The notes: generated by a model not told the origin, from the letters alone. DNA of 64,000 bases from Haloferax sp. Atlit-12N (GCF_003383095.1 NZ_PSYW01000001.1:496001-560000), one strand, 5' to 3'. Counted from the first letter of the stretch, positions 44,244-64,000 are shown. Numbers and translations: made by a program.

Positions 44244-44316
44244 GCCGGTGTAGCTCAGCTGGCAGAGCGATTCCTTCGTAAGGAATAGGCCGAGGGTTCA
44301 AATCCCTCCACCGGCT
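44244..44316 (+). tRNA. tRNA-Thr (anticodon CGU)
   Basis: Seventy-three bases fold as a complete cloverleaf. The acceptor arms GCCGGTG and CACCGGC pair fully, the anticodon stem ATTCC/GGAAT encloses TTCGTAA with anticodon CGT, and the T arm is GAGGG-TTCAAAT-CCCTC. The discriminator is T, as in archaeal tRNA-Thr. There is no intron and no encoded CCA. The region to its right changes to accessory DNA, so the 3' end is the likely attachment site of an integrated element. Confidence 0.97.
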
Positions 44317-44387: not shown

Positions 44388-44480
44388 GTGACCGTCGACT
44401 GTCCCGCGTGCGGTCACGAGAGCGAGGTCCGATTTCGCTGTGAGCGCTGTGGATACGATCTCGTCGAGGAGGACCCCTGA
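44388..44480 (+). CDS. Thirty-residue zinc-ribbon mini-protein
   Basis: Starts GTG and reads VTVDCPACGHESEVRF, then RCERCGYDLVEEDP. Two CxxCG-type knuckles (CPAC and CERC) form a complete four-cysteine zinc ribbon in 30 residues. The TGA overlaps the ATG of the 701-aa gene (TGATG at 44478-44482), so it is coupled to it and is probably its partner or regulator. Easily missed because of its size and GTG start. Confidence 0.7.
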   Translation: MTVDCPACGHESEVRFRCERCGYDLVEEDP

Positions 44481-46585: not shown

Positions 46586-46720
46586 CGCGCTGTCTTCCGA
46601 GTGGCGACGCTGTTTTTTCGGTGAGCATGCGGAGCATTTTGCAGTATTTTCAGGAGATTATTGTTCGAAAAATTCTGGCGCTGTCTCGAGCCCGCAGCGA
46701 CCGCGACCGCAGTCACTTCG

Positions 46721-46743
46721 AATCAGGGGGGTCCCCCCTGATT
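46721..46743. repeat. Palindrome, 11-bp arms
   Basis: AATCAGGGGGG and CCCCCCTGATT are perfect complements around a single T. As DNA it is a near-continuous 23-base palindrome, as expected for a protein-binding or cruciform site more than for an RNA hairpin. Confidence 0.7.
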
Positions 46744-46753
46744 CTGCGTTAGC

Positions 46754-49256: not shown

Positions 49257-49661
49257 CTACGGCGCGGCGGTCCCGACGTTGTTGTTCGAGTTGTTGAACG
49301 GAAGGTCGATTTCGAGACCGTCGTAGACTAGCACGGGTTTCTTCGGGAGTCCGGGGCCACCGCCTTCGAAGTCGATGACGCCGATATCAGCCAGTTCAGT
49401 CAGGTTCCGGTGAACCTGCTTGTAATCACGGTCAACCAACTCTGCGGCTTCGCGGATGCTGTCCGGTTCAGCCTCAGAGATTGCCTCTAACAGTTCGAGG
49501 TTCTTCGGACTGAGCAGCCGACTGAGTTCGGCGAACGAGTCGAAGTTCAGCACCGGCTGAGCGTCATCGAGTTCCTCGCCTGCCTGTGCCGCCTTGAGCC
49601 GCTGTCTCGTGCGTTCGTCGAGGTCGTTCCCCTCACCAACCGTCACTTTGAGCTTCGTCAT
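49257..49661 (-). CDS. tumA: HTH antitoxin-type regulator (HVO_A0114/TumA-like)
   Basis: A 134-residue protein. A helix-turn-helix lies at about 60-105: LLSPKNLELLEAISEAEPDS and IREAAELVDRDYKQVHRNLT. This matches the haloarchaeal HVO_A0114 family of putative DNA-binding proteins. It follows the TumE-like gene by 24 bases on the same strand. By analogy with TumE/TumA pairs it would neutralise the toxin and repress the operon. An Asn-rich tail (NNSNNN) ends it. The pairing is established knowledge for the families; activity here is inferred. Confidence 0.75.
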   Translation of the reverse strand: MTKLKVTVGEGNDLDERTRQRLKAAQAGEELDDAQPVLNFDSFAELSRLLSPKNLELLEAISEAEPDSIREAAELVDRDYKQVHRNLTELADIGVIDFEGGGPGLPKKPVLVYDGLEIDLPFNNSNNNVGTAAP

Positions 49662-49685: not shown

Positions 49686-49991
49686 TCACGTTTCCCAGTC
49701 CCAGGAGACGGATGACATCTCCTCGGCCTCTTCTTTGAATCGGTCATAGAGCGTCAGCATCCCAGGGAAGTCGATGATCTCGACTTCAGACCCGGTGTGT
49801 CGCTCGTGACCCTTCGTCCGTTCGTGGGCGTTGTCGTACCGGAGGATGGTGTCCCCACCGAGGCTGCCGAAATGGAGGCTGTAGTCCCACCCACTAGGAT
49901 ACTTATCATCCTCCGTCTGGCGGATGGTTACATTGACGACGTACTCGTCTTTGACAGCCTTCCAATCTGCAATCGTGATGTAGGACGCCAT
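49686..49991 (-). CDS. tumE: TumE-like toxin
   Basis: A 101-residue protein of the TumE/DUF6516-like toxin family, with IRQTEDDKYPSGWDYSLHFG and the characteristic LRYDNAHERTKGHERHTG, in which conserved Arg, Asp, Asn and His residues line up with the family. The mode of action of the family is poorly known; a nuclease-type activity has been proposed. It is the first gene of a two-gene operon with the HTH antitoxin. Its promoter lies inside a palindrome. Confidence 0.72.
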   Translation of the reverse strand: MASYITIADWKAVKDEYVVNVTIRQTEDDKYPSGWDYSLHFGSLGGDTILRYDNAHERTKGHERHTGSEVEIIDFPGMLTLYDRFKEEAEEMSSVSWDWET

Positions 49992-50674: not shown

Positions 50675-52591
50675 TCAAATCCCAACTTCTGCAGCGTCAG
50701 TCGTCGCCGTCTCGAACGAAGAATTATCCCCCGGTGCAATCCCGATATCAGCTAACGACCGTTCGATGAGCGGTTTCGCGCGCTCAACGTCGACCATCTC
50801 GACCGTCTCGGACAGTCGCATCCGCGCCGACGCCTCCGAAAGCCGCTGCAGCGCGTCGAGCTTCCGCGCCGTAATTGGCAACGGTGGCCCGTCGTATTCC
50901 TTTTCGCCCATCGCGGTCGCGTAGCGTTCCGGCAGCGATGTCTTCGTCTCGACGAACCACTCGCGCATCTCCCGGGCGACTACCGGGTCACGAACGACTG
51001 GCTGGACCTGCTTCGCGGCCGTGACGTAGGCGGTGAACTCGTCGCGGTCGAGTCGGACCGATTGACCCGAGTCGTCTTCGTCGACGTCTTCTCCGAGCGC
51101 ACGCCGACCAGCACGATTCCGAGAGCGGACCATCTTTTCGGAAATGTCCCGAATCTTCGCTTCGTCTTCCTCCGAGCGAATCGTGAAGATGAGGTCGAAC
51201 CGAGAGAGGAGCGGCGACTTCAGTTCGACCTGGTCGGCGATATCCTTCGACGGGTCGAAATGTCCACCCATCGGGTTCCCCGCCGCGAGGAGCGACGTTT
51301 CGGCAGGGAGCATCGCGTTCTTCCCCGCCTTCGAGACGTGCACCTGCTGGGATTCGAGGGCAGTATGAAGCGCATCGAGGTCGCTCGTCTCGCCCTTGTC
51401 GAGTTCGTCGACGACGGCGATTCCCTTGTTCGCTCGAACCAGCGTTCCCGCCTCGATGCTGAACTGCTCGGACGAGAACGAGTCTTTCACGATCGAGGCC
51501 GTGAGGCCAGCGCTCGACGAACCGGTCCCGTCGGTGAGCGCGCCGCGCGGTGCGACCTCGTAGGCCGCCTCGAGGAGCAACGTCTTCCCGGTCCCCGGGT
51601 CACCGAGGAGAAACATGTGCGAGTCGCCGCGGTGGTGGGTGCCGTCCCGTCCCGTTCGTGCCCAACCACCGAACTGCTGGAGCACCAGCGCCTCCTTGAC
51701 GTGCCGGTGGCCTTGATGTGACGGCGCGAACGAATCGACGAGGAGTTCGAACGTGTTCGGCGCTGCTGCAACCTCGTCGATTATCGCTTCGTACTCGGAG
51801 AGGTCGGCGTCCTCGAAGCCACCCTGTTCGACCGTGTAGCCCGTCCCGACGAGGTCCTTCTCGAACACCACGTCACCGGTGTACACCGGGTTCAAGCGGC
51901 CGAAGAACGTCGTCCGCGTCCCACCTTCGACTCGCGGGTCTCCCGCCAAGGTACCGGTGAGATGGATATCGATGTGCTCGGTCTCACCACGGGCGTTCTC
52001 GGGCGGCTCCTGCAGGCGAATCTTCTGGTAGTTTGTCCATTCGGACTGCGTCTCGTTCAGTCGGAATGGGCCCTGCATTTCACACCCCTGACAGCGGTGC
52101 GGTTCTTGGAGCGACCCGAAGCTGTGTTGCGGAATATAGGTCATCGTCCCGCACCGGAAGCACTCGAACGCCGCCTCCTCGACCATCGGATTGACCGCGG
52201 TCCGCTTCGTAATCTGGCCTTCGAGTGCCAGCAGTCGCCCAATCCAGTCTTCGGGGGAGAACCCTCCGACGTCGAACGTCGCGTCGTCCGGGAGGTTCAC
52301 GACCGAGACCGAGGCTCGCGCCATCGGTTTCTCACGTCCGGGAATATCGAACTCTCTGACGACGTCTTCGAGTCGTTCTAGCGTCGTCTCCGGACGGGCG
52401 ACGATATCGCTCGCGACGCCCGACACGGCCGCCAGCGAAAGCTCCGAATCGTCGTGTTCGGCCTCGTACCGCGCGATAGCTTGCCAATCGAGTTCGAGGC
52501 GCGTTTCCTCCGGATAGTCATTGGCCAACTCGTAGATGTCGTCGATCGCGACCGCGTTGAGGACCTCCTCGAGTCGCGCTTCGTAGTTCAT
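50675..52591 (-). CDS. mcm: MCM replicative helicase (mobile-element paralogue)
   Basis: A 638-residue MCM protein. The N-terminal zinc site is C144/C147/C167/C170. The AAA+ core has Walker A GDPGTGKT (330-337), Walker B IAVVDE (391-396), sensor-1 N439 in AAGNP and arginine finger R464 in LLSRFD. It should unwind DNA at replication forks. It is shorter than intein-bearing chromosomal MCMs and has no intein. Extra MCM copies in archaea are known to derive from integrated elements. It is the last gene of the minus-strand operon, joined by ATGA overlap, so the element probably recruits host replication factors around its own helicase. Confidence 0.93.
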   Translation of the reverse strand: MNYEARLEEVLNAVAIDDIYELANDYPEETRLELDWQAIARYEAEHDDSELSLAAVSGVASDIVARPETTLERLEDVVREFDIPGREKPMARASVSVVNLPDDATFDVGGFSPEDWIGRLLALEGQITKRTAVNPMVEEAAFECFRCGTMTYIPQHSFGSLQEPHRCQGCEMQGPFRLNETQSEWTNYQKIRLQEPPENARGETEHIDIHLTGTLAGDPRVEGGTRTTFFGRLNPVYTGDVVFEKDLVGTGYTVEQGGFEDADLSEYEAIIDEVAAAPNTFELLVDSFAPSHQGHRHVKEALVLQQFGGWARTGRDGTHHRGDSHMFLLGDPGTGKTLLLEAAYEVAPRGALTDGTGSSSAGLTASIVKDSFSSEQFSIEAGTLVRANKGIAVVDELDKGETSDLDALHTALESQQVHVSKAGKNAMLPAETSLLAAGNPMGGHFDPSKDIADQVELKSPLLSRFDLIFTIRSEEDEAKIRDISEKMVRSRNRAGRRALGEDVDEDDSGQSVRLDRDEFTAYVTAAKQVQPVVRDPVVAREMREWFVETKTSLPERYATAMGEKEYDGPPLPITARKLDALQRLSEASARMRLSETVEMVDVERAKPLIERSLADIGIAPGDNSSFETATTDAAEVGI

Positions 52592-52902
52592 CCGACCACC
52601 CCGAGTAGCGATGTCCAGTCGAACGACAGCGCCCGCTCGATCGCCATCGAGACGAGCTCACGGCCGCGGCCGACGTTGAGCGAGACGACCCCGACGACCA
52701 GCAGGCCGGCGAGCGTGAGAGCGACCACTTTCGCGTCGTGAGCGGCCGTCGACGCGACGCCGGCGACGAGCGACCCCGCTTTCGAGGCCTTGTGGACGTA
52801 GCTCACAGTAACCAGCAGGGCGAGCAGTCCCATCACCGAGACGCCCTCGATACCGAAGGCCGTGAACGCCGTTTCCAGCGTCGCTCGGATGGGGTCGGTC
52901 AC
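52588..52902 (-). CDS. Three-helix small membrane protein
   Basis: A 104-residue protein with hydrophobic segments at about 21-38 (VSVMGLLALLVTVSYVH), 56-74 (VVALTLAGLLVVGVVSL) and a weakly hydrophobic C-terminus. ATGA overlaps join it to the surface-glycoprotein gene upstream and the MCM gene downstream. Function unknown; probably a membrane component of the same apparatus. Confidence 0.75.
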   Translation of the reverse strand: MTDPIRATLETAFTAFGIEGVSVMGLLALLVTVSYVHKASKAGSLVAGVASTAAHDAKVVALTLAGLLVVGVVSLNVGRGRELVSMAIERALSFDWTSLLGVVG

Positions 52903-55664
52903 TTGTCGTCACCACCGATTCGGAAGACGTTCTCCGGGGTCTTCGCCTCGACAATCCGCGCTTGCCGCCGCGTGTACCACCAGTAGCCGAGGCCACCGAC
53001 GACGAGTAGTACGCCGAGGACCGACGCGAGCGGAAGCGCGGTGTCGAGCGCCGATTGAACCGGAGCCGTGATGGACTCCGGCGAGATGAGCAACACACCG
53101 ACGAAGCCGGCGACGACGAGCGCCAAGCGGACGAGCGGCCGTTCGTACACCGGCGTCGACCGCGTCGAGGACATCCGTCGCTCCGTGTACGCGATGGCTC
53201 CGGCGATGATGACCAACACGAGTGCGGCCACCAGTCCGGGGTTCAGTACCGGCATCGCGGGGATGTAGTCCTCGGCAGTACTCGTGACGGCTCCGCCACC
53301 ACCGGCGAAGAACCCACTTCCCCCCGACGCATTGGACGACTCCGACGACTTCCGGATGTGGAGAATCTCACCCGAGTCGTCGTCGGCCAAGACGACTGTC
53401 TCACCCGCAACTGCGGAATCACGTTGCGTCCCGGCGGTCGTCGAGTAGAGGAGATACGTGTCACCGGCCGACGGCGACAGGAACTCGTATGTCACGCCGT
53501 CGCCGGTGTGCGCTCCCGGTCGGACTGAGAGCTTGGGTTCCGTCGTCGACGGATTCGTGATTCGGAAGCGAGCTTCACCGGTCGCCACGTCTACTCGAAC
53601 GGGAATCGTCGAGACGCGGAACGTCGACGCATCCGACGCCTCCGGGAGGTAGAGACGGTGGTAACCCGTCGCGGTCACCTCGTCGTACTCGGTGTCGTCG
53701 AACGACTCGTTGTAGGTGTAGTGGAGTCGGTGTTCGTCCGGCGACCCGCCGAGCGAGATATACGAGTCGTTCGACCACGAGTCGAGTTGAATCTCGGAGT
53801 CGAGTCGCTCACCGAGCGGTGTCGGGTCTGTCACCGTGAGAGAGCCGTTCGAGACCACTAACCTCTGTCCCCTGGCACGGAGCGAGACTGAATCACCACC
53901 AGAAACCGAGCCCATATCAACGACCAGTGCTGTTCCGTCGAAGTCGTAATCCTTCGGTGCCACGGTGGACCAACTTCCGCCGTTGTACCGCTTCTCGATG
54001 GACCTGATTTGCGCGACGTTTCCGGCAAACGGAATCGAGAGGGTCACACCGGTTTGGTCACCGGTGAACGTCTTGGTGACGTTGTACGACTCTCGCCACT
54101 TCGAGGACTCGTAACTAACCGATTGCTGGTCGTGTGCTGTATGAGAGAGTGAGAGATTTACGCTCGGAGTCGGAGCGTCATCTGATACGGAACCGGCACC
54201 AACTCTGAAGCCAATATTGTTCTCCCCCGACTGGACCCACGATTCGTTTACCGACAGGTTCGCAGTCTGACCTTCAGACAGCGTCCCGGTGAATCCAGTC
54301 GAATGGTTGTTGATGATAACCGTCGGGTTCCTCGTCAAGGACACCTCCGTATAGTTGATTGTCACGTCGAGCTTCCCGGATCCTGACGCCGAAATCGTCG
54401 AAGTCGACGGAGAGAGCTCTATCGAACCACTCTGTTGAATTGTCGTTGATCCGACCGAGAACGAACCACCATCACCGTCAGCGGTGATAGTCATGGAGTC
54501 AGTAGACGTTCCAGTATAGACTCTAATATTGTCGCCGTCTGCGGTTTCACCGCTTTGGTAGTCGTTGAAGTCGAAAACGATGTTCACAGAGTCATACGCC
54601 GACACATCCGTGTCGAAATATCGGGTCTGTGTAGAGCCAGAATATCCTGCGCTAAGTGACGTTCCAGTTGTTGTGATCACCGTTCCGTCAGCTTCCTCTA
54701 AGCGAACCTCAACACCGGAACCGATATCTGAACCCGTGTCCTGAACGTCAACCCTCACTTTGTCCAGGTACGACACCTCAGACACGTCAAGCGTTTTAGT
54801 GGTCGTCTCGCCTCCCGAGAGGTGGTAACCGCCTTTGTTGAACACTCTTGCAACAGGAGTCGCGGTTATCGATGCCGAATCAGCGAGATCAGACGCGAAG
54901 GAGATTGCCGCTGACGAACCACCTTCGACCGAGAATGTTTCCGACTCTGTCTCAGTCGACCGACTTCCCTCGACCATTGCGGTGAAATTGCTGACCGCAT
55001 CGACTGAGTTAACGGAGTAGGAAATTGTGGTCCCGTTCGTTGCGCCAAACGCGTTGACTCTGGTATCTCCCGAGAACGTCACCACGTTCGACGAGAAGTG
55101 CGCAACGTCGAACAACAACAGGCCGGCGTCGTACCGAACTGGCGACGACCACTCAGAACCGTCGTCGTGCGTCCCATAGATTCGCTCGGGAGTGTATCCG
55201 AGTGCGTCACGAACCGCACCGGCGTCTATCGCGACCGTCCGTCCAGTCGAGTGCACGTCGTCGCGCAGCACCAGTACGACCTCGCCACCACCGACAGTTG
55301 TACCGTTCACGTACCCCGACGCGCGACCGGGCGTCGTCGCGATGACTTCGAGCGACTCGGCGTGGTCCGATGCCATCACCGACCCTTCCAAGTCTGCAGC
55401 TCGGAGTGGTGGATTCGTACCGACTGGGAAGTCCTCTGAAACGTTCGCGTCAGGAACACCGACGAGACCACTCGGCACGGCCGCCGAGACGCCGACAAAC
55501 GGAACCAGTATCGATGCCACAATCATCGCGACCAGCAGGGCCGAGACCACCCGGTGGGGGCCCCCGAAAACCGGCCCCCGGGGGGGTTTATCCCAATCAT
55601 GATCATAATACGCGCGCGGGAGGCGTGTCAGAAAACCCGACAGTTTCCGGCGAATCCACCTCAC
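52899..55664 (-). CDS. Large surface glycoprotein with C-terminal membrane anchors
   Basis: A 921-residue exported protein. A cytosolic leader of about 37 residues precedes a signal/anchor helix (about 40-60). A beta-rich, Ser/Thr/Gly-rich ectodomain (about 62-800) has many N-x-S/T sequons. Three helices close it (about 806-828, 844-862, 877-901), with a short basic cytosolic tail ending FRIGGDDK. Size and layout suit a spike, S-layer-like or vesicle-coat protein of a mobile element. Overlaps (ATGA) tie it to the ATPase gene before and the small membrane protein after. GC drops inside the ectodomain (54.1-55.1 kb), a sign of fast change or a separate origin. Confidence 0.85.
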   Translation of the reverse strand: MRWIRRKLSGFLTRLPRAYYDHDWDKPPRGPVFGGPHRVVSALLVAMIVASILVPFVGVSAAVPSGLVGVPDANVSEDFPVGTNPPLRAADLEGSVMASDHAESLEVIATTPGRASGYVNGTTVGGGEVVLVLRDDVHSTGRTVAIDAGAVRDALGYTPERIYGTHDDGSEWSSPVRYDAGLLLFDVAHFSSNVVTFSGDTRVNAFGATNGTTISYSVNSVDAVSNFTAMVEGSRSTETESETFSVEGGSSAAISFASDLADSASITATPVARVFNKGGYHLSGGETTTKTLDVSEVSYLDKVRVDVQDTGSDIGSGVEVRLEEADGTVITTTGTSLSAGYSGSTQTRYFDTDVSAYDSVNIVFDFNDYQSGETADGDNIRVYTGTSTDSMTITADGDGGSFSVGSTTIQQSGSIELSPSTSTISASGSGKLDVTINYTEVSLTRNPTVIINNHSTGFTGTLSEGQTANLSVNESWVQSGENNIGFRVGAGSVSDDAPTPSVNLSLSHTAHDQQSVSYESSKWRESYNVTKTFTGDQTGVTLSIPFAGNVAQIRSIEKRYNGGSWSTVAPKDYDFDGTALVVDMGSVSGGDSVSLRARGQRLVVSNGSLTVTDPTPLGERLDSEIQLDSWSNDSYISLGGSPDEHRLHYTYNESFDDTEYDEVTATGYHRLYLPEASDASTFRVSTIPVRVDVATGEARFRITNPSTTEPKLSVRPGAHTGDGVTYEFLSPSAGDTYLLYSTTAGTQRDSAVAGETVVLADDDSGEILHIRKSSESSNASGGSGFFAGGGGAVTSTAEDYIPAMPVLNPGLVAALVLVIIAGAIAYTERRMSSTRSTPVYERPLVRLALVVAGFVGVLLISPESITAPVQSALDTALPLASVLGVLLVVGGLGYWWYTRRQARIVEAKTPENVFRIGGDDK

Positions 55665-57196
55665 GCGGTCTCACCCCCGGAACCGGAAGCCGACTTAAAT
55701 GACCGCGACGTCGACGGCAGCCGAGCGACGACGACTGATTCGTCGTCGTTTCGGCGCATCCTGACCACGACTTCCCCGTCTTCGACGACCGGTTCGTCGA
55801 AGGTCATGCCCTCGACCGGGGAGACGAGCTCGTCGCCGACCGCGCCGGTCGCGACCGAAATCCATCCCGAACCCGGATCGCGGACGTAGAGACGGTGGTC
55901 AACCTGGTTCTGCCACGACGCGAACACCGAGTCGTCGAACTCCGGTTCAGCTGGCGCGTCGGCCTCGGCCGCCATCGCCGTCGACGGGAGCTGTGTGGGT
56001 GCGCCGAGTCGGACGCGAAGCCACCGAGTCTCGTCTTCCGGCGCTTCGGCGACGTCTTTCCAGCCGAAGTAGCTGAACTTCGCCGTGTTGTAGCACAGGC
56101 CGGTTCCGATGGGAAGCCCCGACGTGAGGTCGCTCGTCATGGGGATGTTGTCGAAGCCGAGCGGCCACGTTCCGCGGACGTTCTTGACAGGGTTCGGCGA
56201 ACCGTCAGGCATCTGAATCCGCCACTTGAACTCGCGGCGAATCTTCTCGTGGACGTTCTCCTCGTAGTGGCCGAAGTAGAACTGCGAGAAGCGTGCCCGC
56301 CGCGACTCGGCCCACAGCGACCGCAGGAGTTCGATCTTGTCCCAGAGGCGTCTCCCCGGCGAGTTCCGCGCCGACTGCGGGACGAAGTCGCCGACCTCGT
56401 CGAAGATGAGCGCGGTCCAGCCGATGTGCGTGCCGTGTTCCGTGCGGGCGAGGATGAACGCGAACCACCAGTCGGTCAGCGGCGTCGCGTGGCGGCCTTC
56501 GGACGGGTCGGCCTCCCACGTCGGGACGAACGGAAGCGGCTCACCGACGCGTTGGGTCTCCTCTGTGAGTTCGCGGCAGCCGCTGAAACTCGGGTCCGGG
56601 TAGACGACGTTGAACGTCCCCGGCTGCTGCTCAGCGAGTTGGTCAACGAGATCGAGTACGTCCTCGTAGTATCGAACGTCGCGAGCGACGGCGTCGATGT
56701 CGGCATCGTAGCGACCCGCATCCTCGTCTTCCCACGTCGCCTCAACCGTCGCGTGCTCGGGGAGCCAAACCGTCGCCCAGTCCTTGAGCCGAAGCCACTC
56801 GGAGCGCGCGGGCGACCCGCGCCAGATGACTTTGTTCGCGTTCATCTCGTCGACGAACGGGAAGTCCTCCAACAGCCGAATCGCGAGCGACGCGGCCTTC
56901 GTCGACTTCCCCGACCCGCGGTCGCCCTTGATGAAGGCGTCAGTTCCGCGCGGCGTCGTCGTGACGGTCGGGTCCCGCTCGTGGACGACGAGGTCGGGAT
57001 ACACGCCCGACTTCACCTGTCCCGGCTCAGGGACGTAGTCGTCCGGCTTGAACGGCGGGATGCCGAACTTCTGCCGCATCTCGTAGGCGTCCGTCTTCCA
57101 ATGCTTCGGTGCGGAGTGAGCGACCGCTTGTCGGGTTCGCTCACCCCAATCGTGCCCCGCAGGCGGGGTGGCGTTGTTCGTGACCATGTTATCCAT
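55661..57196 (-). CDS. P-loop ATPase of the HerA/VirB4/FtsK type
   Basis: A 511-residue ATPase. Walker A is GDRGSGKST (91-99) and Walker B is TALIFDEVGDF with D266/E267. RSLWAESRRARFSQFYFGHY after Walker B matches the sensor region of DNA- or protein-pumping ATPases. The N-terminal 80 residues and an Asp/Glu-rich C-terminus are specific. It has no membrane helix, so it would dock onto the membrane proteins of the operon. It could package, transfer or secrete DNA or protein; relatives are found in pleolipoviruses and in conjugation systems. It overlaps the 259-aa gene by eight bases and the glycoprotein gene by ATGA. Confidence 0.82.
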   Translation of the reverse strand: MDNMVTNNATPPAGHDWGERTRQAVAHSAPKHWKTDAYEMRQKFGIPPFKPDDYVPEPGQVKSGVYPDLVVHERDPTVTTTPRGTDAFIKGDRGSGKSTKAASLAIRLLEDFPFVDEMNANKVIWRGSPARSEWLRLKDWATVWLPEHATVEATWEDEDAGRYDADIDAVARDVRYYEDVLDLVDQLAEQQPGTFNVVYPDPSFSGCRELTEETQRVGEPLPFVPTWEADPSEGRHATPLTDWWFAFILARTEHGTHIGWTALIFDEVGDFVPQSARNSPGRRLWDKIELLRSLWAESRRARFSQFYFGHYEENVHEKIRREFKWRIQMPDGSPNPVKNVRGTWPLGFDNIPMTSDLTSGLPIGTGLCYNTAKFSYFGWKDVAEAPEDETRWLRVRLGAPTQLPSTAMAAEADAPAEPEFDDSVFASWQNQVDHRLYVRDPGSGWISVATGAVGDELVSPVEGMTFDEPVVEDGEVVVRMRRNDDESVVVARLPSTSRSFKSASGSGGETA

Positions 57197-57968
57197 TCGG
57201 AACGAATCGCTCCGTATTCGGCTGACTCGGGACCTCTGCGGCGCGGCCCGACACCTGTCGGACGCTCGCGTTGAACCCGGCGAGGAAGAACTCCGCTGCC
57301 CACGACTCGCGGAAGAACAGGCCGCGAGGGTCGTCCGAGAGCAGGAGCCGACGCACCGGGAGTTCGAAGTACGCGGCCTCGATGACCCCGGCGTCGACTT
57401 CGGCGTAACTCGCCTGGACGACTTCCTGTCCCCACTCGACGAACGCGTCCTCGTCGCGGAAGCCCCGGAGCAGTTCGTCGAGGAGCCCCGACATCCGCGA
57501 CTGGAGCGTGCCGAGTTCGGGCCGCATCGCCGGGTGGAGCTGTGCCTGTGCGTCCGGGATATCGCCGACCTCGTCGGTTCCGAGGTAGTCCTTCGCCGAC
57601 CACCGGAACTCGCGGTGAGCGCGGCGAATGGCCGGCAAGAGGTCCATCACGGCCATCGACCGCCGTATCTCGTCGGCGGTCGCGGATGAGAAGGGCTCGT
57701 CCGCGTCTCGAAGCGGCCCCCACGGCTCATCGAGGAGCGCCGACATCGACCCCGGCGAGGAAATGACGGCCGCGAACCAGTCGTCCTCGAGCGCACCGAG
57801 CGTGTGGACGGTGACTTCGGACATCCATCGGAGTACACCCGACCGCGACTCGAACCCGTCGAGCAGTCGCTGGAAGGCGTCGCGCTGGTCCGCCGAGAGC
57901 TTCGCCAGCGCGCGACGTGGCACGTCTTCGGTGTCGGCCGAGTCGGCCCGGCGGTAGGTGCTACTCAT
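57189..57968 (-). CDS. Helical soluble protein of unknown function
   Basis: A 259-residue acidic, mostly helical protein starting MSSTYRRADSADTEDVPRRA. No membrane segment or catalytic motif is visible; it has long amphipathic helices (DQRDAFQRLLDGFESRSGVL, ELGTLQSRMSGLLDELLRGF). The ATG at 57968 overlaps the end of the 594-aa gene by eight bases and is preferred over a longer in-frame start. Position just before the ATPase suggests a cytosolic coupling or adaptor factor; this is inference. Confidence 0.75.
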   Translation of the reverse strand: MSSTYRRADSADTEDVPRRALAKLSADQRDAFQRLLDGFESRSGVLRWMSEVTVHTLGALEDDWFAAVISSPGSMSALLDEPWGPLRDADEPFSSATADEIRRSMAVMDLLPAIRRAHREFRWSAKDYLGTDEVGDIPDAQAQLHPAMRPELGTLQSRMSGLLDELLRGFRDEDAFVEWGQEVVQASYAEVDAGVIEAAYFELPVRRLLLSDDPRGLFFRESWAAEFFLAGFNASVRQVSGRAAEVPSQPNTERFVPNG

Positions 57969-59745
57969 CGGGCCGTCCTCCGTCCGTGCTCGCCTGCGCG
58001 CCATGGTCGTCGCCGAGGTAGCGACGAGCAACGGTGTCCATCTGCGACGCCTCTGCGCGGTCAGAGAGGGCTTTGTTTTCCGCCTTGTTCTCGGCGCGCT
58101 CGGAGTGGTAGCGGTCGAACAGCGTCTCCCACGACTTCACGTTCCCAATCTGGTCGGCGTGCTGCAGCATCGCCGCAAGCGCGTTGCCGTAGTGGACTGG
58201 CGCGAGGTCGACGCCGAAACGACCGGAGACCGGGCGCATCACCTTCGTCGCGAAGAGGACGCCCCCGCCGATGAGGAGTCCGAGCGACGGCGAATCGAGG
58301 AGAACGCTTCCGAGGAGCCACGACGCACCGAGCGCGGCCACACCGCCGAGAATCGCCGTCGCGTTTACGTCGAGGCGACCCTCCTCGTCGCGGGAGATGA
58401 GTTCCGGGAAGCGAATCTCGTGGCGTTCGGGTTCGTACTCGACCGGACTCTGGGACTCGGGGTCGAGGAAGAACAGTTCCTCGTAGGGGCCGCCGTTCAC
58501 CTCGATAGACGTTTGCGGCCGGCCGTTCGTTGCCATGTCCGCTCGAGCGCCACGAGCGCGGGCGTAGAACCGCGCCAGTCCGCGTTTCACCGCCGACCGG
58601 ATGCCGTCCGGGCCGCGGACCATCCGCTGTGGGTAGACGTCGGCGATGAGTCGGCCGGGAACAGCGTCCATGTCGACCGTCTGTCGGCCCTGCGACCCGC
58701 CGTCCGTCGCGATGTCGTCCGCGAGTGGGTCGGGACGGTTGTTTCCGTCCTGCGGCGCGGCCTGACGGACCATCGAGTCCATCCCGTCTTTCGCCCGGAG
58801 ACGGACGAAGAGCGCGAGATAGCTGTCGTCACCGAACCACTCGGTCGCGAGGATGCCGAGGAAGATGCCCCCGATGACGCCGAGCATCCACGGCGCACGG
58901 ATGAGCGACGACGAGACCTGCCGCCAGAACACGACCATCGCGGTGCCGATGCCGATGAGCGCCAGTATCCACGCTAGAAGCGAGATGCCGGGATTCCCGC
59001 GGGCCTTCTCGACCGCGCGGCGACCAACGAACAGCGTCACCGACGTGAAGCCGGCAAAGGGGAACGCGATGAGGCCGATCGACCACGCCAGCCGCGATCC
59101 TTCCGAGTTCGTCTCGATGGGCTTCGCCGCCTTCGACGAGGCGTGGTAGAACATCCAGCGCTTTGCGCCGGGGTTGGCGAGACAGTTCGGTTCACCGGGC
59201 TCTTCGACACACATCGTCGTCCGAACCCGGTCGTCGTAGTGCGGCAGCAGGTCGATGCGAATCGGCTTCGAGTAGCCCGCCGAGACGGTGACCTTCTGGG
59301 AGTGTGTGGTGACGTTCTTCGCGACTTCCTCCTCGACGACGGTCCCGTCCGACAACTCCTTCGAGACGGTGCCCGCCTTCCAGTAGGCGATGCGAACGGT
59401 CACGTTCTGGGGTTCGACGCCGAAGGCGCGGCGGGACTCGAGTCGGACGTAGTTGCGGCGGACCGTCTCGCCGGGACTCATGAACGACCACATCGGCGAG
59501 TCCTCACCCTCGATGACCAGCAGTCCCGTCGGGAGCGACTTCACGCCGTACTGCCCGAAGCTTCCGCTCGCTCGGACCGAGTCGGGCGCGTTCGCCGGCT
59601 TCTGCCCGCGCTCGTTCAACTGTTCGAGGGTGAGCCCCGAGTCCGTCTCAGTCGCCGTTTCGTTGGACTGTGCGACCGCACCGACCGGAACCAACAGTGT
59701 GACCAGCACCAGCGCCAGCAGCGCGAGCCTCACGGGTTGTCTCAT
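57961..59745 (-). CDS. Exported polytopic membrane protein
   Basis: A 594-residue protein. It begins with a signal peptide (RLALLALVLVTLLVPVGAVA, about 6-25), then an ectodomain of about 200 residues with a Cys pair (TTMCVEEPGEPNC), three helices (about 225-245, 260-280, 290-310), a cytosolic loop of about 140 residues, two more helices (about 470-515) and a long charged cytosolic tail. Size and topology suit the core membrane channel or scaffold of a secretion, conjugation or virion-assembly apparatus. No family is recognised. It overlaps the next gene by eight bases. Confidence 0.78.
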   Translation of the reverse strand: MRQPVRLALLALVLVTLLVPVGAVAQSNETATETDSGLTLEQLNERGQKPANAPDSVRASGSFGQYGVKSLPTGLLVIEGEDSPMWSFMSPGETVRRNYVRLESRRAFGVEPQNVTVRIAYWKAGTVSKELSDGTVVEEEVAKNVTTHSQKVTVSAGYSKPIRIDLLPHYDDRVRTTMCVEEPGEPNCLANPGAKRWMFYHASSKAAKPIETNSEGSRLAWSIGLIAFPFAGFTSVTLFVGRRAVEKARGNPGISLLAWILALIGIGTAMVVFWRQVSSSLIRAPWMLGVIGGIFLGILATEWFGDDSYLALFVRLRAKDGMDSMVRQAAPQDGNNRPDPLADDIATDGGSQGRQTVDMDAVPGRLIADVYPQRMVRGPDGIRSAVKRGLARFYARARGARADMATNGRPQTSIEVNGGPYEELFFLDPESQSPVEYEPERHEIRFPELISRDEEGRLDVNATAILGGVAALGASWLLGSVLLDSPSLGLLIGGGVLFATKVMRPVSGRFGVDLAPVHYGNALAAMLQHADQIGNVKSWETLFDRYHSERAENKAENKALSDRAEASQMDTVARRYLGDDHGAQASTDGGRPDE

Positions 59746-59757
59746 TCGAGACGCACC

Positions 59758-60180
59758 TCAGAACGTCCCCCGCCGGAGGCCCACGATGCCGCCGATGCCG
59801 AGCGCGACGATGGCGATGCCGACGAACTGAATCGTCGACAGCGGGACGACGCCGGAGAGGCCGGCTGTCCCGACCACGCCGACGATGATGCCCGAGATGA
59901 GTTCCGGCGCGTTGACGAAGAGATCGCCCAGCGCGGCACCGAGGTCTCCCAGCGACATCCCGGCCTCGTAGAGACCGCCAAGGACGCCCACGGTGAGCGC
60001 CGAGAGGAATCCGACCCCGCCGCCGATGGCACGCTTGGAACGCGCTCCGACGCCAGCACCGACTTCTGAGGCGGTCTTCTCGTCTTCGTACTCCGCCCAC
60101 GCGAAGCCGATGAGCACCAGCGCCGCGAAGCCGCCGAGCACGGCCAGCCAGTTCGATGTCAGCAGTTCGAGGACGTTCAT
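59758..60180 (-). CDS. Four-helix membrane protein
   Basis: A 140-residue protein: helix at about 9-28 (WLAVLGGFAALVLIGFAWAE), a charged loop, then further hydrophobic segments at about 53-70, 90-108 and 112-134, ending GLRRGTF. The organisation recalls small pore or TrbC/VirB2-like membrane proteins, but no similarity can be shown by eye. It lies 12 bases before the 594-aa gene. Confidence 0.72.
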   Translation of the reverse strand: MNVLELLTSNWLAVLGGFAALVLIGFAWAEYEDEKTASEVGAGVGARSKRAIGGGVGFLSALTVGVLGGLYEAGMSLGDLGAALGDLFVNAPELISGIIVGVVGTAGLSGVVPLSTIQFVGIAIVALGIGGIVGLRRGTF

Positions 60181-60248
60181 CGACCCGCCTCCGTCGACGT
60201 CGGTTCTGTTTCCGTTCGATTCGTCGTCTGCGTGTTACTTCGTTGCAT
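60177..60248 (-). CDS. Possible 23-residue coupled ORF
   Basis: Reads MQRSNTQTTNRTETEPTSTE then AGR. Its stop overlaps the ATG of the 140-aa gene (ATGA) and its start lies 14 bases inside the end of the 91-aa gene, filling the only sizeable gap of this part of the operon. It is Thr-rich and too short to judge; it may only relay ribosomes. Confidence 0.3.
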   Translation of the reverse strand: MQRSNTQTTNRTETEPTSTEAGR

Positions 60249-60510
60249 TTCGTGAACTCCTAAGTTTGAACAGCGAAACCGCGAGCATCCCGAGCGCCGC
60301 CGCGAAGAACAGCGCGTTCCACGGCAGCGCCGGGAGCAGTTGGGGACCGATGAATCGCGTGAACAGCGACGCGATGCCGTACCAGTCGCCCGAGAGCAGG
60401 AACGCCGGGTCGAGCGTCACGAACGACTTGAGGTAGAGCACCGCACCGGCGAGGACGCTCCCGAGAACCGCCGCGCCTCGTTCGAGCGGGTTCTGTTGGT
60501 CGTCGCTCAC
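60235..60510 (-). CDS. Two-helix membrane protein
   Basis: A 91-residue protein from GTG 60510 (reads VSDDQQNPLERGAAVLG). Helices lie at about 11-30 and 60-83 (NALFFAAALGMLAVSLF). The GTG overlaps the stop of the 175-aa gene (GTGA), which fixes this start against the longer open frame. It resembles the neighbouring two-helix proteins in size and topology but lacks their shared motifs. Confidence 0.7.
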   Translation of the reverse strand: MSDDQQNPLERGAAVLGSVLAGAVLYLKSFVTLDPAFLLSGDWYGIASLFTRFIGPQLLPALPWNALFFAAALGMLAVSLFKLRSSRNATK

Positions 60511-61034
60511 GGGAGCAACCCTCCGAGACCGGGGACCGCATCGACGATGATCCGGACGACCAGATAGACGACGAGCGTCGCGACCGCCGCCAACAGCGCC
60601 GACGCGAACCCACCGGCAATCGGGGCGGCGAGGCCGGCGTCCATCAACGGACCTGCGAGGAGGTCGCGGAACATCGTCGGCAGCTCCAGAACCGGCGTGA
60701 GCCCCTCCCACGCACTCTCACCGGCCGTTCCGAAAGCTGACTCCATCACGGTGGTCGTCGTCGCGACCGCCCAGTCGACGGTCTCGAACGCGAACTCCGC
60801 GGGCCGGAAAAAGACGTTCGTCACGACCCACGTCCCGATGGTCGTCACGATGAACGTCGCCGGGGCTTTCAGGAACGACTCGAGTTGGTCCGGGTTGTCG
60901 GAGAACGACGTGAGCGTGCCCAAGACGCTGAGGCCGCCGTCGTCGCTCTCGCTGTCAGTACCGGTCCTCTGGTCGGGACCGGAAGGCGCACCGGAGTTGT
61001 TGTAGGTCTCGCCGCCGGTGTCCGGCGCGTTCAC
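60507..61034 (-). CDS. Two-helix membrane protein, paralogue A of three
   Basis: A 175-residue protein. A disordered, Gly/Ser/Asp-rich N-terminus starts MNAPDTGGETYNNSG; helices lie at about 62-80 (FIVTTIGTWVVTNVFF) and 143-165. Motifs AFGTAGES and LLAGPLMDAG correspond to AFGIGGEA and LLTGPFAELG of the 165-aa gene, and NAPDxxGG opens both, so the genes are diverged duplicates. ATGA overlap with the 118-aa gene upstream. Confidence 0.75.
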   Translation of the reverse strand: MNAPDTGGETYNNSGAPSGPDQRTGTDSESDDGGLSVLGTLTSFSDNPDQLESFLKAPATFIVTTIGTWVVTNVFFRPAEFAFETVDWAVATTTTVMESAFGTAGESAWEGLTPVLELPTMFRDLLAGPLMDAGLAAPIAGGFASALLAAVATLVVYLVVRIIVDAVPGLGGLLP

Positions 61035-61387
61035 GAGACGACCCTCCGAAGGTCCCAGATGGTCGCGACGATGACGAGCACGGCGACCGCTTCAAGGGCC
61101 AACAGCACCGGCGCAAACGGGCCGAACTCGACCGCCGCGATTGCCGCTGCTCGCCAACTATCGGCCACCACTCCCGCACTCTCGCCGAGCGCGTTCGAGA
61201 CGAACGCCGTCAGAAACCGCCCGACGAAGTTGATGAGCGCGACCTGCGCGCTCACCAGTACCGACAGCAGTTCGATTTGGACCGAACCGAAGAGCGTCAC
61301 AGCCGCCGCGAGAAGCGTTCCGACGAGTTGCTTGACTCGGATAGAGCCGTCGTCCGCGACGTACTGCTCGGCATCAGTTCCCGACAT
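61031..61387 (-). CDS. Two-helix membrane protein, paralogue B of three
   Basis: A 118-residue protein with helices at about 20-42 and 88-112. Near the C-terminus EFGPFAPVLLALEAVAVLVI and the end TIWDLRRVVS correspond to ELGPFLPWIAAVVAIGVVMI and TWYLDRRDSD of the 165-aa protein, indicating common descent. Its N-terminus lacks the NAPD stretch. Overlaps the 175-aa gene by ATGA. Confidence 0.75.
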   Translation of the reverse strand: MSGTDAEQYVADDGSIRVKQLVGTLLAAAVTLFGSVQIELLSVLVSAQVALINFVGRFLTAFVSNALGESAGVVADSWRAAAIAAVEFGPFAPVLLALEAVAVLVIVATIWDLRRVVS

Positions 61388-61451
61388 GAGTCACCCCCAG
61401 GTGTCGCCGGGAGCCGACCGCGCCGCGGTCGCGTTGCTGACCCACCGTCAT
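61374..61451 (-). CDS. Possible 25-residue coupled ORF
   Basis: Reads MTVGQQRDRGAVGSRRHL then GVTHVGN. Its ATG overlaps the stop of the 165-aa gene (TGATG at 61449-61453) and its end overlaps the start of the 118-aa gene by 14 bases. The basic composition is not halophilic, so it may exist only to relay ribosomes or be chance. Confidence 0.25.
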   Translation of the reverse strand: MTVGQQRDRGAVGSRRHLGVTHVGN

Positions 61452-61948
61452 CACTCCTCGTCGGTGAAGTCGCCGTCTTCGTCGTTTCCGATGACCGGCA
61501 GGTCGATGCCCAGGCCCGGCACGTCCGAGTCGCGGCGGTCGAGATACCACGTCAGGATCATGACCACACCGATGGCGACGACGGCCGCAATCCACGGGAG
61601 GAACGGCCCGAGTTCGGCGAACGGCCCGGTCAGGAGCGAATCCGCCGCCGATTGGAACGACGCCGAGACGAACTCCGCCGGGTCACGAGTCAGCGCGAAC
61701 ACCCACGCCTCGCCACCGATGCCGAAGGCGTCCAACAGCGTGACGGGGAGGTTGACGACCGACTCTCCGAGTGCGATGACCGCCGACCCGGCGAAGACGG
61801 CGATGCCGCTCACGGTCGCGATGAACGCCTGACCGAAGTTGTCGAATCGGTCGGCGAAGTCGATGTAACTCCGCGCGCCGTCCAGACGCGGCCCGCTCGA
61901 CCCGCTCGACGACGAACTGCCCCCAGAGGCGTCAGGCGCGTTCACCAC
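61451..61948 (-). CDS. Two-helix membrane protein, paralogue C of three
   Basis: A 165-residue protein starting at tandem GTG codons (VNAPDASGGSSSSSG). A Ser/Gly-rich N-terminus is followed by helices at about 40-62 (FIATVSGIAVFAGSAVIALG) and 117-137, and an acidic tail (NDEDGDFTDEE). It shares motifs with both the 175-aa and 118-aa proteins, so it links the set. It starts three bases after the stop of the 497-aa gene. Confidence 0.75.
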   Translation of the reverse strand: MVNAPDASGGSSSSSGSSGPRLDGARSYIDFADRFDNFGQAFIATVSGIAVFAGSAVIALGESVVNLPVTLLDAFGIGGEAWVFALTRDPAEFVSASFQSAADSLLTGPFAELGPFLPWIAAVVAIGVVMILTWYLDRRDSDVPGLGIDLPVIGNDEDGDFTDEE

Positions 61949-61951
61949 CGT

Positions 61952-63445
61952 TCAGGCCCCCGAGCGCTTCGATGCGATGCCGACGGTCGCAGCGATAGTC
62001 GCGAGGCCGGCGGCGATCCAGTTCGTAAAGCCGGAGAGGAACGAGAACCAGCCGCCGTCGCCCGACGAGAAGCCCGCGCCGCCGAGCGCCGACGGCTGCA
62101 TCGCGTCGTACTGGTCCTCGGTCACCTTGTACTCGTACTTGATGACCGTGTCCTGTCCGGGCTGGACGGTGTCGTCGAGCGTGACCGACGCATTCAGCGA
62201 CGTGTACAGCGCCGTCTTGTCCGTCCACGACTCGATATCCTCGAACGCGGTCGACTCCGAGACGCCCTCGGCAAGTTCGACCGAGAGGACGCGGTCACGC
62301 GTCACCGACTGCTCGTCGGTGAGCGCCGGGAACTGGTAGTCGAGGTCGTACACGTCCGGCAGCGCCATCCGGTACTGGACCGTGACGGTCCCGAAGTAGC
62401 CGGGGTACTTGTTGCCGGTTTCTTTGAACTTGACGTCGACGTCCTCGGCGTCGAGTCGCTCGGCCGTGAAGTTCGCGTCGAAGGTCAGCCCCTTGATGGC
62501 CGCCGAACTCGCCCACGACCCGAGCGAAGAGAGTTCGTTCACCGCGAGCGTTCCCGAGGCGTTCTTCTCGTACACGTCGACTGTCTCGAGTTCGTCGTCG
62601 TTGTCCGTATTCTCAAGGCGCGTGCCGAGCTTGTACTTCGAGAGCTTCTCGAGGTTCAGCATCGACATCGTCACGTCCGCGTCGCCGTCGCGGACGACGA
62701 CCTGCACCGATTCGAGCGTCCCGACGGAGCCGTCTCCCGCAGTAATGAGGTCCATCTGGCCCATCTGCTCTTGGAAGACGTAGCCCGAGCCGGTCGCGTT
62801 CGCGATGAGGTTCGAGCCGGACGTGCGAGACGTGTTGATTTCGGCCGCGTAGTAGTCACCGTCGTCGTCGACCGCGCGAAGTTCGACGACCGCGCCGGCG
62901 TCGAGTTCGGCGACGTCGACGGCGGTCGCGAGATGCTTCTTCTGGATGTCGCTGTCGATAGAGAAGTTCGAGAACTCGAAGACTGCCACATCGCCGCTCG
63001 TCTGCGAGGTCGTCGAGAACCGCACGCCGTCGACGCCGGACGCCGGCGAGTCGGACATGAGCGTCGTCGTGCCCACCGTGTCGGACTCGTTGACGGTCCA
63101 CTCGTTCGCGTCGAGTGCGGAGACGTTCTCCTTGTCGACCGGGAACGCACCGAAGTCCGCGGCGTCGACGTGCGTCGGGTAGAACGAGTACGGGTTGTCG
63201 ATCGAGTCGTTCACCTCGGCGTCCGCGAGGACGAGCTCACCGTCGTTGTTCTCGTAGCGGAGCGGTGAGTCCCACGAGGCGTTGTGCGTCGCCTTCGTGA
63301 GTTGGACGCCGTACTGCGGGTTCGGCGTCGCGTCCGCCGAGAAGTCGATCTCAGAGGATGCGTCGGTGGCCGCGGCCGGCGTGGTCAACAGGAGGACGGC
63401 CATCGCGACCGACAGGAGCGAGAACAGGCGACTACTCCCCGACAT
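61952..63445 (-). CDS. Exported surface protein with C-terminal anchor
   Basis: A 497-residue protein. A signal peptide (LFSLLSVAMAVLLLTTPAAA, about 7-26) leads into a beta-rich ectodomain with about ten N-x-S/T sequons, and a C-terminal helix (about 470-490, NWIAAGLATIAATVGIAS) anchors it. The middle (FTAERLDAEDVDVKFKETGN) and the late part (QPGQDTVIKYEYKVTEDQYD) have no recognised family. It may be a second envelope or vesicle protein beside the 921-aa glycoprotein. It overlaps the 131-aa gene by 14 bases. Confidence 0.8.
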   Translation of the reverse strand: MSGSSRLFSLLSVAMAVLLLTTPAAATDASSEIDFSADATPNPQYGVQLTKATHNASWDSPLRYENNDGELVLADAEVNDSIDNPYSFYPTHVDAADFGAFPVDKENVSALDANEWTVNESDTVGTTTLMSDSPASGVDGVRFSTTSQTSGDVAVFEFSNFSIDSDIQKKHLATAVDVAELDAGAVVELRAVDDDGDYYAAEINTSRTSGSNLIANATGSGYVFQEQMGQMDLITAGDGSVGTLESVQVVVRDGDADVTMSMLNLEKLSKYKLGTRLENTDNDDELETVDVYEKNASGTLAVNELSSLGSWASSAAIKGLTFDANFTAERLDAEDVDVKFKETGNKYPGYFGTVTVQYRMALPDVYDLDYQFPALTDEQSVTRDRVLSVELAEGVSESTAFEDIESWTDKTALYTSLNASVTLDDTVQPGQDTVIKYEYKVTEDQYDAMQPSALGGAGFSSGDGGWFSFLSGFTNWIAAGLATIAATVGIASKRSGA

Positions 63446-63827
63446 GGTTCACCCCCGCTGCGGCGGACCGGTAGGCGATGACGCCGAGTCCGGCGGCGGC
63501 ACTCGCGGTGACGAGCGCGGCGAACTGCATGCCGCCGCCCGCCGATGCCCAGAGCCACCCCGCAACCGACGCGAGCAGCATCGCTCCCGCCATCGCGTAG
63601 TCTCGGGTCTTGCCGGCGAGTCCGTAGCCGTCGACGCGACTCCGGGTGTGTGCGCGCACCCCGCCGTCGGCTTCGAGGTCGTCTTCGACGTAGGACACGC
63701 ACACGTCGGTCGGGAGTCGGACACGGGGGTCGGTGGCCGCGTCCACGTCGACTTCGATGTCTCCCTCGAGGTCGGAGACGGCCATTGCGTGGGTGTGCCC
63801 GTTCGCGGTGACTGCCACGTCACCCAT
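63432..63827 (-). CDS. Small membrane protein with acidic N-terminal domain
   Basis: A 131-residue protein. Residues 1-70 form a soluble acidic part (DLEGDIEVDVDAATDPRVRL), followed by two helices (about 77-95 and 100-119). The N-terminal half alternates like a small beta domain. It starts inside the end of the 47-aa gene (eight-base overlap). Function unknown. Confidence 0.7.
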   Translation of the reverse strand: MGDVAVTANGHTHAMAVSDLEGDIEVDVDAATDPRVRLPTDVCVSYVEDDLEADGGVRAHTRSRVDGYGLAGKTRDYAMAGAMLLASVAGWLWASAGGGMQFAALVTASAAAGLGVIAYRSAAAGVNHVGE

Positions 63828-63963
63828 CGAGCGGGTCCTCCGTCGACTCGATAGTTGCTTCGTCGGACGCGAAAAGCGACTCCCACTCTTCGACCTCCGA
63901 GCGTCGGTACTCGACGATTTCTCCGTGAACTCCAGTTGGAGTTCGGTCAGCTCCCTCAGTCAT
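63820..63963 (-). CDS. Small acidic protein
   Basis: A 47-residue ORF reading MTEGADRTPTGVHGEIVEYR and then a strongly acidic half with EVEEWESLFASDEATIEST. The stop lies within the start of the 131-aa gene and the ATG overlaps the stop of a further upstream frame (ATGA). Composition is clearly haloarchaeal. No family is recognised. Confidence 0.65.
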   Translation of the reverse strand: MTEGADRTPTGVHGEIVEYRRSEVEEWESLFASDEATIESTEDPLDG

Positions 63964-64000
63964 GGTTCGCCGGCGACCTCGTTCGGCGTCGCCGACGATT
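63960..64000 (-). CDS. C-terminal end of another cistron (partial)
   Basis: The frame enters from the right edge, reads SSATPNEVAGEP and stops with TGA at 63960-63962, overlapping the ATG of the 47-aa gene. The same ATGA pattern as at most other junctions suggests the operon begins beyond this window. Confidence 0.45.
   Translation of the reverse strand, partial: SSATPNEVAGEP

Follow-up and report, generated by a model that had tools for sequence, protein, structure and literature searches.

What does a haloarchaeal operon do that joins exported surface proteins, a series of small membrane proteins, a P-loop ATPase and an MCM helicase? The question arises from a 64,000-nucleotide stretch of the Haloferax sp. 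Atlit-12N genome (hereafter the window, which is part of a 1.55-Mb contig), in which a first reading made without database searches (the sequence-only reading) had proposed an enveloped virus, plasmid-vesicle or conjugation system. An uncharacterised, transfer-like module on a mobile element is indeed what we find, and sequence alone leaves these three modes unseparated.

A Tightly Coupled Operon of Membrane and Surface Proteins

Thirteen tightly coupled genes occupy the minus strand, running from 63827 down to 50675:

63432..63827, minus strand: g01, 131 aa, 1 TM segment (homologues, hydropathy), in a minority of loci
61952..63445, minus strand: g02, 497-aa exported, beta-rich surface protein (AlphaFold; weak Foldseek matches)
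61451..61948, minus strand: g03, 165-aa membrane protein, paralogue of g04 (profiles)
61031..61387, minus strand: g04, 118-aa membrane protein, paralogue of g03 (profiles)
60507..61034, minus strand: g05, 175-aa membrane protein, 1 TM segment by hydropathy (homologues)
60235..60510, minus strand: g06, 91 aa, 2 TM segments (homologues, hydropathy), present in the closest loci only
59758..60180, minus strand: g07, 140 aa, 4 TM segments (homologues, hydropathy)
57961..59745, minus strand: g08, 594-aa membrane protein with a signal, an ectodomain, about 4 TM segments and cytosolic parts (homologues, hydropathy)
57189..57968, minus strand: g09, 259-aa conserved soluble protein, no fold assigned (homologue profiles)
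55661..57196, minus strand: g10, 511-aa NTPase of HerA/FtsK fold (AlphaFold/Foldseek; phrog_22963; relation to the pleolipovirus NTPase)
52899..55664, minus strand: g11, 921-aa exported protein with N-terminal and C-terminal TM segments (homologues, hydropathy)
52588..52902, minus strand: g12, 104 aa, 2 TM segments, with a homologue (E<1e-4) at 21 of 35 loci
50675..52591, minus strand: g13, MCM helicase, 638 aa (PF00493, E=1e-69), an optional partner of the module

Five junctions are 4-nt ATGA/GTGA overlaps, and most of the remaining ones lie within a few bases. In nucleotides, the junctions are −14 (g01-g02), +3 (g02-g03), +63 (g03-g04), −4 (g04-g05), −4 (g05-g06), +54 (g06-g07), +12 (g07-g08), −8 (g08-g09), −8 (g09-g10, assuming the ATPase start at 57196, which homologues back), −4 (g10-g11), −4 (g11-g12) and −4 (g12-MCM). 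Hydropathy gives hydrophobic segments in seven small proteins (g01, g03, g04, g05, g06, g07 and g12); it also marks two long proteins as exported and g08 as a larger membrane protein. The sequence-only reading had described such an operon, joined by ATGA/GTGA or short overlaps; its count of 14-16 cistrons was slightly high, and its inventory (exported proteins of 497 and 921 aa, a 594-aa membrane protein, a P-loop ATPase, MCM and at least seven small membrane proteins) agrees with ours. We regard g03 and g04 as paralogues, since both profiles retrieve the same two genes at each locus.

MCM apart, no operon protein has a convincing Pfam family, and sequence-profile searches of the PDB with the module proteins returned nothing convincing. 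Predicted structures cover two module proteins, g10 and g02; for the other core proteins, Pfam, phrog, PDB profiles and hhalign gave no convincing match. The g02 model (pLDDT 84) is beta-rich, with weak Foldseek matches to the HFTV1 turret and to carbohydrate-binding modules, and is consistent with a role in surface recognition. Some g02 homologues carry Tat-like signals. We also considered g02 as a pleolipovirus spike, and no such spike is among the PDB fold matches listed.

The Operon Lies on an Element Integrated at a tRNA-Thr Gene

The operon is carried by a 44.6-kb element integrated in the tRNA-Thr(CGU) gene of the Haloferax chromosome, with a GC content of 0.56 against 0.68 and 0.65 in its flanks. 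Its left end and a toxin-antitoxin pair fall within the window:

44244..44316, plus strand: tRNA-Thr(CGU), integration target (ARAGORN; in congeners G011 and G002 the intact tRNA is followed by native sequence)
44304..44316, no strand: attL core CCCTCCACCGGCT, formed by the 3'-terminal 13 nt of the tRNA gene; a second copy is at 88869-88881 (extended coordinates, beyond the window)
49257..49661, minus strand: HVO_A0114-type winged HTH, probable antitoxin of the TumE pair (PF25212, E=7e-29)
49686..49991, minus strand: TumE-like toxin (PF20126, E=2e-14)

A tyrosine integrase gene at 87517-88824 (extended coordinates; PF00589, E=3e-14) adjoins the right end of the element. The site is empty, with the tRNA and no element, in G002 and G011, and in G011 the tRNA runs straight into what, in the window genome, lies after 88869. 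With an integrase, att repeats at the tRNA and an empty site in relatives, this is a site-specific integrative element. A 22-bp repeat at 88974-88995 was considered as the right att and ruled out, as the aligned empty site of G011 puts the junction at 88869-88881. An earlier integration has left a short relic in G011, and this relic recurs to the right of the window element; the repeat at 88974 belongs to the relic because it is present in G011 as well; for the same reason, an attP-like reading of the relic was withdrawn.

The module is present in 3 of 15 Haloferax genomes, and others have empty sites, so that it is not a locus common to all relatives, one outcome that would have spoken against the sequence-only reading. 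In Hfx. gibbonsii ATCC 33959 (G007) this tRNA, too, is occupied by a related element; that of G013 lies elsewhere. On the left side of the Hfx. gibbonsii element (G007:C7 near 40 kb, L132), at its end, some 90 bp that include the att core are duplicated in tandem, and an N marks the junction.

Besides MCM, the element has a gene of Orc1/Cdc6 type, toxin-antitoxin pairs and an island of defence genes. The island (extended coordinates 70607-85957; L005:8607 to L006:3957) encodes a type II restriction enzyme and two cytosine methyltransferases, as well as Cas4-like, CARF6 and Ppl-like proteins. A second toxin-antitoxin pair, an HVO_A0114-type HTH with a short partner, lies at 65923-66732 (extended coordinates), in a region 95% identical in DNA to the virus LSV-48N.

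A Rep-Arvir Initiator and a Candidate Origin

No rolling-circle Rep had been recognised in the sequence-only reading. One does lie in the window, outside the operon, together with candidate origin repeats downstream of it:

44388..44480, plus strand: 30-aa CxxC (zinc-ribbon-like) micro-ORF, read from the sequence, its stop overlapping the Rep start
44480..46585, plus strand: Rep-Arvir (DUF7845) rolling-circle initiator, 701 aa (PF25227, E=3e-96; phrog_3288, E=1e-115)
46720..46744, no strand: inverted repeat, candidate Rep binding site of the origin (layout as for the SNJ2 origin in PMC13107129)
46754..46775, no strand: hairpin TGTGTGGCTAAAGAGCCACACA, candidate nick site, identical in LSV-48N

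A 2026 study of the pleolipovirus SNJ2 reports that the DUF7845 family, named Rep-Arvir, initiates rolling-circle replication, with Tyr283 being essential (PMC13107129). Tyr412 of the window Rep, the catalytic residue, aligns with this tyrosine. A similar hairpin, GTGTGGCTAA..CCACA, occurs in HHPV3 and HRPV9. The sequence supports a rolling-circle-type Rep-Arvir initiator with its origin and integration at tRNA-Thr through the tyrosine integrase, and on this basis both mobility and replication of the element are well supported.

The Module Recurs in Conserved Order across Haloarchaea

Iterated profile searches over loci of related genomes show that 9 or 10 of the operon genes recur in conserved order at about 49 distinct haloarchaeal loci from many genera, with a near-constant order of g02, g03, g04, g05, g07, g08, g09, g10 and g11, often followed by g12. 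Among the 49 distinct ATPase loci left after removal of near-duplicates, g08 is found in 46, Rep in 36 (within the fetched stretch) and MCM in 10, all of these being lower bounds because many loci were covered incompletely. For 38 of the 43 loci, Rep follows on the downstream side of the ATPase gene and is encoded on the other strand. We had considered MCM as a defining part of the module and dropped it on this count; the helicase that the sequence-only reading gave to the module as its own is present in the window and not integral.

In a scan of named genomes, relatives of the ATPase were found in Haloferax, Halobellus, Natronomonas, Halorhabdus, Halorubrum, Haloplanus, Haloarcula, Halosimplex, Halobaculum and others, all haloarchaeal except one record labelled Rhizobium. 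In that record (L110, NZ_JAUDRZ010000015.1, labelled Rhizobium sp. S152), the module is nearly identical to that of Halobaculum litoreum, and the locus is probably a contamination or a mislabelling. Of 165 good-quality genomes sampled among relatives of the window, 33 encode a core module protein.

For seven tested genes, dN/dS between two Haloferax genomes is 0.13-0.25. As the gene order recurs in other haloarchaeal genera and the genes are under such constraint, the operon is not a chance arrangement. Between G000 and G007, dS reaches 0.65 in g10 and 1.18 in g09 (55661-57968); for the remaining genes tested it is 0.11-0.27. The contrast points to a recombination patch at g09-g10. Several loci elsewhere, G118b and G159 among them, have split or missing genes; the 37-kb contig G159:C4 was considered as a circle and has no terminal overlap.

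On a 163-kb plasmid of Halosegnis marinus (L009), the module is accompanied by a replication kit of another type, with MCM, Orc1/Cdc6 and a family B DNA polymerase next to it.

Relationship to Known Viruses and Plasmids

Foldseek matches the predicted structure of g10 (pLDDT 76) to HerA and to packaging ATPases, among them NTPase B204 of STIV2. Its homologues match phrog_22963 in 29 of 30 cases and phrog_1979, the pleolipovirus NTPase family, in 3 of 30 (best E=5e-6), and the window g10 itself has no phrog_1979 match; a tblastn search of the phage collection did not find the source of phrog_22963. With hhalign, g10 scored 95.5% against an 11-member pleolipovirus NTPase alignment, centred on the stretch from Walker B to a 'GH..kDvH..RR' motif. 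As controls, an apHPV-type 783-aa protein gave 0.4%, a pT26-2-type ATPase 3% and MCM 22%, and an Orc1-like protein gave 91% over only 28 P-loop columns. Since 28 columns of a generic P-loop can already yield 90%, the link is good but not overwhelming, and g10 appears to be a distant relative of the pleolipovirus NTPase rather than a member of the same family.

Betapleolipoviruses share with the window element a Rep-Arvir with an origin hairpin and, it appears, a distantly related NTPase, and those annotated as such (SNJ2, HRPV9, HRPV10 and HHPV3) have the same arrangement of an operon convergent with Rep. SNJ2, like the window element, also has integrase, Orc1/Cdc6 and toxin-antitoxin genes. 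However, betapleolipovirus genomes are 9-17 kb, whereas the window element is 44.6 kb with a far larger operon, an extra exported 921-aa protein and an optional MCM. No homologue of the pleolipovirus capsid, spike, VP3, ORF6 or ORF7 was found in the operon by hhalign (VP3 and VP4-type spike at background). Matches of g08 to pleolipovirus ORF6 and to the apHPV 418-aa protein were rejected, both being to the signal peptide only; the former is gone once the signal is removed. The putative pleolipovirus link comes from the ATPase, Rep with its origin and the gene layout; spike and membrane proteins do not contribute to it.

The pR1SE/apHPV plasmids encode their own membrane and surface proteins, a packaging-type ATPase and MCM or Cdc6, occur in integrated and free forms and carry defence cargo (PMC10818511); the window element has a comparable set of parts. 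We used pHTUR05 and pHALXA03, picked by gene order and S8 protease, to stand in for pR1SE-like plasmids, and found no profile match between the module and their proteins except MCM. Neither cluster 1 (ORF6-ORF9, including the S8 protease) nor cluster 2 (including the packaging ATPase; 0.4% for the 783-aa ATPase-like protein) has a match among the operon proteins in these two plasmids. The comparison with pleolipoviruses and pR1SE that had been proposed for the locus holds for the kind of system; by profile, no pR1SE-type protein was found, the optional MCM excepted.

The pT26-2 family of Thermococcales and Methanococcales encodes membrane proteins in a conserved block together with a HerA/VirB4/B204-like ATPase, integrates at tRNA genes and has MCM in some members (PMC6972569). 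Its set of parts is similar to that of the module, but gene order and hosts differ, and the best module match to the core genes t26-5p, 6p, 7p, 11p, 13p, 14p and 15p in one representative, the free pMEFER01, is about 3%.

The lemon-shaped Haloferax virus LSV-48N and the window element share the origin hairpin, a Rep 78% identical, a toxin-antitoxin region at 95% DNA identity and right-end genes at 68-70%. Rep, origin and toxin-antitoxin cassette form a shared chassis on which the particle genes differ, those of LSV-48N being unrelated to the module by profile, with P-loop matches only.

Most of the module is also found on pNG300 of Haloarcula marismortui, a free natural circular plasmid, with MCM between g09 and g10 and no DUF7845 Rep (neighbour clustering). 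We know of no described function for pNG300. Searches of IMG/VR (alignment and single-protein scans with an exact-pattern prefilter, hence weak negatives) and of the phage collection (tblastn) returned no relative of the module. No known chromosomal system matches the operon, an identity that would have told against a transfer module, and the open literature searched, which leaves out most subscription papers, contains no description of it. As far as these comparisons were run, the module lacks defining genes of the pleolipoviruses, apHPVs, pT26-2 family and LSV-48N alike, but judged by its parts it likely works similarly.

A Possible Apparatus for Spreading Element DNA

We see an even chance that this is a haloarchaeal virus-like plasmid in integrated form, belonging to an apparently undescribed family, with a membrane module that spreads the element's DNA. 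In such a scheme, the element would excise and then replicate from the Rep-Arvir origin, and the 10-gene core (g02-g05 and g07-g12) would be assembled in the cytoplasmic membrane as a membrane-based dissemination apparatus. Surface recognition would fall to g02 and g11, while g03-g05, g07 and g12 would give a patch of membrane its shape or its coat and g08 would form a transmembrane hub. As the NTPase of HerA/FtsK type, g10 would deliver or pump the element's DNA to this hub and load it into a budding, surface-decorated membrane particle, so that the element could spread without lysis. The most likely product would be a non-lytic membrane-enveloped particle or plasmid vesicle, similar to those of pleolipoviruses and pR1SE.

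The transfer function and its mode are what we infer, and three arguments favour a role in dissemination. The module accompanies the replicon and mostly keeps one orientation to it, whereas the stretch bearing the defence genes differs from element to element; elsewhere, replicons of this kin are coupled to genes for virus particles; and the set of components recalls pR1SE, pleolipoviruses and pT26-2, for which membrane transfer has been shown or proposed. Somewhat more tentatively, and a little short of even, we propose that the module founds a new haloarchaeal family of enveloped virus-like particles or plasmid vesicles, with structural genes unrelated to known ones except for the pleolipovirus-related NTPase, and that this family assorts with Rep-Arvir replicons common to pleolipoviruses and lemon-shaped viruses.

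The HerA-fold ATPase counts against this explanation insofar as it fits secretion or conjugation as well. The main alternative, a contact-dependent, conjugation-like machine in which the NTPase would pump DNA through a channel of g08 and small proteins while g02 and g11 hold mating cells together, could also use the polytopic membrane protein and the two adhesin-like exported proteins. Rep would be expected to nick DNA, DUF7845 is found on integrative and conjugative elements too according to PMC13107129, and the pT26-2 family, with its similar parts, was proposed as a novel DNA transfer system (PMC6972569). We nevertheless consider such a machine rather unlikely, and dissemination in enveloped particles more likely than conjugation: among the operon proteins scanned, none had a Pfam match to VirB4, VirD4, VirB6-type proteins, relaxase or pilin, though a HerA-fold ATPase is present; carrier plasmids are typed as non-mobilizable (PLSDB); and the ATPase profile is nearer to the pleolipovirus NTPase than to pT26-2 or pR1SE-type ATPases.

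The module might instead move no DNA and serve the host as envelope cargo, in a surface layer, adhesion, protein secretion or membrane-acting defence. The element does bear a defence island, HerA-type ATPases occur in defence systems and the module is under purifying selection. This is improbable in our view: the variable part between elements is the region with defence genes, and the module accompanies Rep (36 of 49 distinct loci, mostly in fixed orientation) and often MCM or Cdc6, and so behaves like backbone rather than cargo. Decay or domestication into a non-functional remnant would account for the split or missing genes in loci such as G118b and G159 and for the relics of earlier integrations at the host site, but in the window all 13 of 13 genes are intact under the low dN/dS given above, as are the Rep catalytic tyrosine and the origin hairpins, which makes a remnant very improbable.

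If the module moves DNA, as the enveloped-particle explanation supposes, it would represent a common, overlooked route of gene transfer in salt-loving archaea, defence islands included. Related replicons would then be combined with three dissemination modules, those of a pleomorphic virus, of a lemon-shaped virus and of the window element, a case in which the boundary between virus and plasmid can be tested directly in a genus open to genetic work, Haloferax. The NTPase also occurs by itself: pNG100 (L008) and pNG400 (L010) carry a g10-type NTPase without the rest of the module, and g10-type ATPases may therefore serve other small haloarchaeal plasmids.
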